Source: Lawsonibacter sp. (GTDB lineage Bacteria; Bacillota; Clostridia; Oscillospirales; Oscillospiraceae). Taken from it: a stretch of 33,822 bases of DNA. Every line of letters starts with the position of its first letter. Position 1 is the stretch's first letter. Below the pieces are notes generated by a model, which saw nothing but the letters and a program-made list of their open reading frames with translations, had not been told where the DNA came from and did not search any database. Positions 30,438 through 33,655 of this stretch are shown one piece after another. Location of the stretch: positions 1 to 33,822 of the forward strand of contig JAAWPF010000002.1 of NCBI GenBank assembly GCA_022799835.1. Reading direction: 5' to 3'. Position numbers and translations under genes: made by a program.

Positions 30438-30537
30438 AAACCCGCCTCCCTTGATTTTTTTGCCGCGGTGGAGTATACTGCCTATATTATAACAGCCCTC
30501 CGGCGGACGGTCAAGCCGGTTTTAGGAGGAACCAACG

Positions 30538-31972: not shown

Positions 31973-33181
31973 GTGTTGGAGGTATCCGGACAGTATAATA
32001 CCGCAAAAATATTTACAGACGTAGTGGACCAGGCGTCCATCGCCCAGGTAATTACCCTGTGCAGCCAGGAGTTTGTCCAGGGGAGCCGCATCCGCCTGAT
32101 GCCCGATGTCCACGCCGGGGCGGGGTGTACCGTGGGCACCACCATGACCATCACCGACAAGGTGGTCCCCAACCTGGTGGGGGTGGACATCGGCTGCGGC
32201 ATGGAGACCGTCCGCCTGCGGGAGGACCATATGGAGATGCAGCGGCTGGACAAGGTGATCCGGGAGAAAATCCCCTCCGGCTTCGACATCCGGGACAGGG
32301 CCCACCGCTATGCTGACAGAATCAATTTGGAGGAACTGCGCTGTGCCCGCCATGTGGACCTGCTCCGAGCAGAGAAGAGCGTGGGCACCCTGGGCGGCGG
32401 CAACCACTTCATTGAGGTGGACCGGGATGACCAGGGGCGGCTGTACCTTATCGTCCACTCGGGCAGCCGGCATCTGGGACTCCAGGTGGCCAACTACTAC
32501 CAGAACGCCGGCTATCAGATGCTCAACCGCTCCGACCCCCAGGCGGAACAGGCGCTGATCGCGGAATTGAAGGCCCAGGGGAAGGAAAAGTCCATCCAGA
32601 AGGAACTGAAAAAGCTGCGCAATACCAAACGCACCGCTATCCCCAAGCCGCTGGCCTATGTCTCCGGGGCGCTGTTTGACGACTACCTCCACGACATGGA
32701 GATTGTCCAGCGGTTCGCCGCCCTGAACCGCCAGGCCATGGTGGATGAGATTTTGAAGGGCATGAAGTTCCGCGCTGACGACCAGTTTACCACCATTCAC
32801 AACTATATCGACACCGGCGAGATGGTGCTGCGCAAGGGGGCTGTCTCCGCCAAGTCGGGGGAGCGGCTGCTCATCCCCATCAACATGCGGGACGGCTCCC
32901 TCATCTGCACCGGCCTGGGCAACGAGGACTGGAACTGCTCCGCCCCCCACGGGGCGGGCCGGCTGATGAGCCGGGCGGAGGCCAAACAGTCCTTCACTGT
33001 CTCCGCCTTCAAGAAGGAGATGGACGGTATCTACACCACCTCGGTGGGCGCCGCCACCCTGGACGAGTGCCCCATGGCCTATAAGCCCATGGAGGCCATC
33101 GTGGACAACATCGCCCCCACCGCCAGAATTGAGCAGACCATCCGCCCGGTCTACAACTTCAAGGCCGGGGACGGGGAATAA
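31973..33181 (+). CDS. rtcB: RtcB-family RNA ligase
   Basis: RLMPDVHAGAGCTVGTTM, NLVGVDIGCGMETV, LGGGNHFIEV, IVHSGSRHLG, SAPHGAGRLMSR; GTG start with AGGAGGT. Confidence 0.92.
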   Translation: MLEVSGQYNTAKIFTDVVDQASIAQVITLCSQEFVQGSRIRLMPDVHAGAGCTVGTTMTITDKVVPNLVGVDIGCGMETVRLREDHMEMQRLDKVIREKIPSGFDIRDRAHRYADRINLEELRCARHVDLLRAEKSVGTLGGGNHFIEVDRDDQGRLYLIVHSGSRHLGLQVANYYQNAGYQMLNRSDPQAEQALIAELKAQGKEKSIQKELKKLRNTKRTAIPKPLAYVSGALFDDYLHDMEIVQRFAALNRQAMVDEILKGMKFRADDQFTTIHNYIDTGEMVLRKGAVSAKSGERLLIPINMRDGSLICTGLGNEDWNCSAPHGAGRLMSRAEAKQSFTVSAFKKEMDGIYTTSVGAATLDECPMAYKPMEAIVDNIAPTARIEQTIRPVYNFKAGDGE

Positions 33182-33200
33182 AAAACCGCCCTGCGGCGGC

Positions 33201-33229
33201 TTGACAGGACAGCGGTAAGCGGCTATAAT
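33201..33229 (+). promoter_or_regulatory. Perfect-consensus sigma-A promoter reading toward the holin-like ORF (antisense)
   Basis: TTGACA - 17 nt - TATAAT, immediately after rtcB. Confidence 0.85.
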
Positions 33230-33235
33230 AAACAC

Positions 33236-33345
33236 AAGGGGGCGGTCAGCCGGGTGTCAGACGACTGGCGGTCAATCTTCAGACAAGTTTATAGCTTGAG
33301 AAAATGCCGTCTTTCGCTGAGGTTCGGGGGGCGGCTACTTCTTTA
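33236..33345 (+). ncRNA. Predicted antisense RNA (type I antitoxin candidate); ends approximate
   Basis: Downstream of the consensus promoter; terminator-like hairpin GCCGTCTTTCG-CTGAGGTT-CGGGGGGCGGC (33306-33335) followed by TACTTCTTT; overlaps the 3' end of the minus-strand peptide ORF. Confidence 0.55.
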
Positions 33346-33412
33346 GGTTATGGCCTAATTGGATTGCCGCAAGGATAAGCATAAGTAACGCTATGATCTC
33401 GCCTGCGCTCAT
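33335..33412 (-). CDS. 25-aa holin-like toxin peptide (type I TA toxin candidate)
   Basis: Not in ORF track; minus-strand ORF MSAGEIIALLMLILAAIQLGHNLKK*, SD AGGAGGT (33420-33426) 7-8 nt upstream; single hydrophobic helix with Lys C-terminus like holin-like toxins (BsrE/TxpA-like). Confidence 0.75.
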   Translation of the reverse strand: MSAGEIIALLMLILAAIQLGHNLKK

Positions 33413-33468
33413 CGGCCTCACCTCCTGAGTCTTGCTGAGGATCAGCCCCGCCTCTCTTGCTTGAGGAC

Positions 33469-33497
33469 GGTATACCAAATTTCACCAAGAAGAGCAA
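33469..33497 (-). promoter_or_regulatory. Putative promoter for holin-like peptide ORF
   Basis: Minus strand TTGCTC - 17 nt - TATACC with extended TGG preceding the -10. Confidence 0.5.
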
Positions 33498-33588
33498 GCT
33501 GTAGGGCCGGATTTAGCACTCCGGCTTTCTGTTTGTGAACGAAATGTAAATCATTTTCCTTTGACCCCAAATTTTTTCAAATTAGGGG

Positions 33589-33628: not shown

Positions 33629-33655
33629 TTAGCACTCGAAAGTTTTAAGTGCTAA
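33629..33655 (+). promoter_or_regulatory. CIRCE element (HrcA operator)
   Basis: TTAGCACTC-GAAAGTTTT-AAGTGCTAA, 9-9-9 architecture with one mismatch. Confidence 0.95.

Follow-up and report, generated by a model that had tools for sequence, protein, structure and literature searches.

Introduction

In Bacillus subtilis, the type I toxin-antitoxin pairs TxpA/RatA, BsrG/SR4 and BsrE/SR5 overlap at their 3' ends and are mostly prophage-borne (PMC6562991, PMC6563280), and RNase III cleaves the duplexes that they form (PMC6562991). The type I modules of C. difficile, e.g., CD0977.1-RCd11, are convergent toxin/antisense pairs present in several copies per genome (PMC6563280, PMC7699646), with toxins of 34-59 amino acids (PMC6563280). 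In Helicobacter aapA/IsoA, the toxin mRNA is kept inactive through pairing of its 5' and 3' regions (PMC6733600).

Here, we describe a locus in a stretch of 33,822 nucleotides (the window) from Lawsonibacter sp., contig JAAWPF010000002.1, that is probably a chromosomal type I toxin-antitoxin module encoding a putative toxin; we put the probability of this reading at about 0.85. Like the three B. subtilis pairs, it would combine a 3'-overlapping antisense RNA with a small hydrophobic toxin with a charged C-terminus. Unlike them, its predicted overlap begins at the stop-codon region and it occupies chromosomal housekeeping sites; the likeness is one of layout, no peptide or RNA sequence match being established. 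Its peptide has 25 residues, versus 34-59 for the C. difficile toxins, which it resembles by description rather than by sequence comparison. With aapA/IsoA it shares a small toxin and a long-distance 5'-3' pairing of the toxin mRNA, but the position of the antisense RNA, the sequence and the host phylum all differ, and this likeness concerns mechanism only.

Results

A conserved 25-residue peptide gene

The initial annotation had described a short minus-strand open reading frame (ORF), with a Shine-Dalgarno sequence and a promoter, between two genes that we take to be rtcB and groES, names resting on that annotation. The ORF, the Shine-Dalgarno sequence and the promoter were all recovered, together with a probable terminator:

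31973-33181, plus strand: neighboring gene rtcB
From 33707, plus strand: neighboring gene groES
33469-33497, minus strand: toxin promoter TTGCTC-17-TATACC, of which TTG-17-TAT is kept in relatives
33421-33426, minus strand: Shine-Dalgarno sequence AGGAGG, 8 nt before the ATG, with pairing possible to an upstream TCCTC (33434-33443)
33335-33412, minus strand: putative toxin ORF, 25 aa, hydrophobic, with an ATG start and an LKK-stop end, based on homologues and pN/pS
33177-33202, minus strand: probable toxin-mRNA terminator (GCCGCCGCAGGGCGG-TTTTTT)

The ORF translates exactly to MSAGEIIALLMLILAAIQLGHNLKK*, with a maximum mean hydropathy of 2.69 over 15 residues, i.e., as in type I toxin-antitoxin loci, there is a gene for a small hydrophobic peptide together with the signals for its translation. 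Two other loci (L005 and L008) have similar toxin-mRNA terminators at the same site. The name rtcB is backed by RtcB relatives of the window protein, which is 91% identical to the RtcB of a Lawsonibacter MAG and 87% identical to that of Pseudoflavonifractor sp. 60. Ahead of groES lies a CIRCE-like HrcA site (33629-33655); a conserved isolated half-site, TTTAGCACTC (33512-33524), lies upstream of it at a distance of about 110 bp and is also kept in genomes without the peptide element.

When 64 genomes of the genus, including that of the window, were searched with the peptide at a threshold of E ≤ 1, 10 gave a match. On inspection, homologues were real in 8 of the 63 other genomes, with up to three copies per genome and 55-96% identity over the matched part; the matches L010 (G027) and L012 (G026) were rejected as due to chance. 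The Shine-Dalgarno context, whose conservation along with the ORF the initial annotation had proposed to check, was the same as in the window, as were the flanking RNA motifs, in G010 (three copies), G062, G032, G055, G023, G019 and G063, the sole exception being a decayed copy in G026. Locus L007 is a decayed copy whose upstream part is gone. Because homologues occur in eight other genomes of the genus, with a kept context in all but one decayed copy, the ORF is more than a product of chance. Among twelve 25-aa members, the pooled pN/pS of the frame was 0.32, and pairwise differences between homologues by codon position were 0.26/0.14/0.41, third positions differing most. These values indicate a peptide frame under purifying selection. 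Two members have a four-residue insertion, the LKK-stop DNA nonetheless being retained. A spurious or decayed ORF behind a chance Shine-Dalgarno sequence might be suspected from its very short length and its escape from family libraries, but is already contradicted by a frame, Shine-Dalgarno sequence, promoters and RNA structure conserved in many genomes, and we regard it as scarcely conceivable.

Beyond the genus, a peptide profile run across the order was convincing in only a few genomes (G725 and G749) besides that of the window, the rest being noise. Phage and plasmid collections contained no match to the peptide, viral contigs contained none to an exact DNA pattern, and a literature search for the peptide family in Oscillospirales genera returned nothing specific.

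A consensus promoter faces the peptide gene

On the opposite strand, the peptide gene is faced by a perfect promoter that the initial annotation had missed, the only 12/12 promoter in the region scanned, and its presence changes the reading of the whole locus:

33201-33229, plus strand: antisense promoter TTGACA-17-TATAAT, a 12/12 consensus match kept in relatives
33236-33344, plus strand: predicted antisense RNA of about 109 nt, a putative antitoxin whose ends are predictions, based on covariance models and covariation
33306-33346, plus strand: antisense terminator, a GC stem (GCCG...CGGC) followed by TACTTCTTT

In the subfamily of the window, TTGACA and TATAAT are each kept in 13 of the 14 members. 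The predicted RNA complements the toxin mRNA from the 3' UTR through the stop codon into the last codons, so that, judged by its predicted promoter, terminator and covarying structure, the locus appears to contain an antisense RNA gene overlapping a toxin mRNA, with a predicted 3' overlap of the two RNAs; in the TxpA/RatA and BsrG/SR4 group, such an overlap leads to RNase III decay. The terminator hairpin spans the final codons of the peptide and its stop: the tail TACTTCTTT is complementary to AAG-AAG-TAG, the codons that form the LKK-stop end, and the aligned DNA, CTAAAGAARTARCCGCC, is near-invariant among copies. The U-run of this terminator is broken, which counts against the reading as a toxin-antitoxin module. 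At two loci (L110 and L112), the antisense-type RNA signal and promoter occur with no recognizable peptide; these are possibly orphan antitoxins or decayed copies.

Coevolving RNA pairing

The predicted mRNA contains two complementary arms, and pairing between them is possible in nearly every copy:

33445-33462, minus strand: 5' arm of the toxin mRNA (AAGCAAGAGAGGCGGGGC), complementary to the 3' region
33234-33249, minus strand: 3' arm of this pairing (CTGACCGCCCCCTTGT)

Across 37 loci, cognate arms formed duplexes with a mean of -27.1 kcal/mol, versus -21.9 kcal/mol when arms were swapped between loci, a difference reached in 0 of 20,000 permutations (4 of 20,000 when swaps were confined to the subfamily). 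Compensating changes are exemplified by CAAGAAGGACG/CGTCCTTCTTG in L119 and CAGAAAGGGC/GCCCTTTCTG in L013. The same swap test favored the cognate stem of the antisense terminator (-16.8 versus -13.9; 0 of 20,000), and for the Shine-Dalgarno hairpin, taken alone, cognate pairing was not significant (1,040 of 20,000).

Covariation in the antisense region was assessed in 36 copies aligned with R1, a covariance model built for the antisense gene from the subfamily of the window. In this alignment (A6), 93.6% of cells were paired, a figure inflated by fitting to the structure of the model. Changes on both sides were found for 17 of the 19 pairs, and the covariation score was 0.516, versus 0.185 in shuffles (0 of 500) and at most 0.113 when the partners were slid. 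These comparisons argue that the predicted mRNA-end pairing and antisense hairpins are preserved through compensatory changes in about 36 relatives. Taken by itself, the window copy gave z values of -1.1 (predicted mRNA) and -2.3 (antisense RNA); as modeled, its mRNA is not unusually stable and the single copy is weak evidence. In the minimum-energy fold of the window mRNA with the terminator included, the outermost 5'-3' pairs were absent.

Relationship to Hol_Tox

The window peptide was below detection in Pfam and NCBIfam, and the sole Rfam match of the locus, to isrK at 16 bits, was at the level of chance; RatA was not matched. The initial annotation had proposed a holin-like peptide to be checked against Hol_Tox (PF16935). 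Profile membership did not hold, since the peptide gave no match at the Pfam cut-off of 23.3 bits, but the architecture of the locus proved identical to that of Hol_Tox loci. When 151 genomes of the bacterial family were searched with the Hol_Tox profile, 6 contained members scoring above cut-off. At six of eight Hol_Tox loci inspected (five of the six above cut-off), we observed the window layout, i.e., last codons rich in A, TARCCGCCC overlying the stop and an antisense promoter pointing toward the peptide gene; the architecture is thus shared with true Hol_Tox members of the same bacterial family. Both types have a Shine-Dalgarno sequence and a short hydrophobic peptide with a basic end opposite this promoter, but the window peptide is shorter (25 aa) and lacks the family sequence signature, and the profile-profile probability between them is only 82%, a value that short helices inflate. 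Intermediate peptides score 11-16 bits with Hol_Tox, and R1 detects the Hol_Tox loci L155 (E = 0.005) and L149 (E = 0.05) and, weakly, L150, L153 and L151. The shared layout, the detection by R1 and the intermediate scores suggest that the window locus works like Hol_Tox modules and probably descended with them.

With a conserved facing antisense gene, compensatory RNA changes and this architecture all in its favor, the holin-like type I toxin put forward in the initial annotation appears to be the best-supported reading. As judged from these comparisons, the locus probably represents a new branch of holin-like type I toxin-antitoxin systems, one that our searches of Pfam, NCBIfam and Rfam did not recover.

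The groES and tatD sites

Empty sites were sought by a search based on rtcB. The insertion is missing in near relatives: at two loci (L014 and L015), rtcB and groES adjoin without the element, and in two genomes (G055 and G019) it is present at the groES site. The window also holds the trace of a second copy:

30451-30514, plus strand: fossil scar upstream of tatD, TTGATT-17-TATACT joined directly to a reversed antisense promoter containing TATAAT

Here the transcribed part of the element is deleted. The same fusion of the toxin promoter to the reversed antisense promoter is found in G002, G061, G047 and G027; full copies stand upstream of tatD in G010 and G063, and only a truncated remnant in G056 and G051. 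In more distant genomes, the tatD promoter at this site is intact (TTGATT...TATGAT), which suggests that the element recruited it to drive the toxin gene. We infer the order of events at the two sites from few genomes.

That two long-standing positions adjoin groES and tatD is what might be expected of a membrane peptide with a physiological role, non-toxic at natural levels, e.g., a regulator of stress or membrane proteins under cis-antisense control, and such control alone would account for the RNA evidence. However, the element is patchy in the genus, multicopy, repeatedly lost and built like Hol_Tox loci, all of which better fits a selfish, addiction-type module; we consider the physiological peptide unlikely.

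Reach across Clostridia

When 401 genomes of the bacterial family were searched with R1, 21 contained matches, and the adjoining peptides form a gradation that begins with the window type and extends to MTLLEVIALFMLIIAVINLVIILTKKK, MTALEVIGLLNLLAVVIFGVINVTKK and MVTFSDMFTYTLVLIALATLIVTITMRKK. A copy belonging to the subfamily (L119), in a genome of another bacterial family, lies inside a prophage tail module with a sheath initiator, DUF2577 and a YqbQ-like neighbor. Across the class Clostridia, a covariance model termed R2, likewise of the antisense gene, gave matches in 35 of 392 genomes, up to nine in one, with about four expected by chance at the threshold used. A peptide of 20-36 aa, led by a Shine-Dalgarno sequence and with its stop at the identical model position, was present at 20 of 29 class-wide loci inspected, and at most of the inspected loci the peptide was hydrophobic with a Lys-Lys end. 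Four genomes (G484, G955, G541 and G985) have several R2 matches each, some of them in tight clusters with spacings of a few hundred bases, as if the modules formed arrays.

A small mobile, MITE-like DNA element, in which the 5'-3' complementarity would be a terminal inverted repeat and not an RNA lock, would likewise be present or absent at fixed sites, occur several times per genome and carry inverted repeats near both ends. Yet no target-site duplication was seen, each promoter is conserved in its own right and sits outside the repeats, selection on the antisense hairpins and on the peptide frame is separate from any on the ends, and the design is kept over all Clostridia while the repeats change completely, making such an element highly improbable.

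At roughly even odds, these type I modules form a single ancient superfamily in the class Clostridia, with one antisense-gene design whose terminator lies over the toxin Lys-Lys-stop. The peptides (20-36 aa) would then have diverged beyond recognition while the RNA layout persisted, the basic C-terminus being partly dictated by the antisense terminator.

Discussion

The locus combines facing promoters, a conserved frame, an antisense terminator over Lys-Lys-stop codons and coevolving mRNA-end pairing. In the mechanism that we propose, the minus strand would yield an mRNA of about 280 nt for a 25-aa single-helix membrane peptide, and the plus strand, from the stronger promoter, an antisense RNA of about 110 nt overlapping the 3' UTR, stop and last codons of the mRNA. 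By comparison with aapA/IsoA, the 5'-3' pairing would lock the full-length mRNA in a state that is poorly translated, and by comparison with the B. subtilis pairs, the antisense RNA would pair with the 3' half of the mRNA, leading to RNase III-type decay. Once the antisense RNA was exhausted, the peptide would be made and inserted into the membrane, and the cell might be depolarized or stalled. By analogy with these systems, we infer all steps from transcription onward.

Outside C. difficile, few type I toxin-antitoxin loci of gut Clostridia have been described, a gap probably due to peptides too short and too divergent to be picked up by protein searches. The layout of the RNAs provides a handle for finding such modules whatever the peptide sequence, and ties uncatalogued peptides to Hol_Tox. 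It also predicts testable rules, i.e., a 5'-3' lock on the mRNA and a terminator over the Lys-Lys-stop codons, and the tatD scars are a record of module loss in related species.
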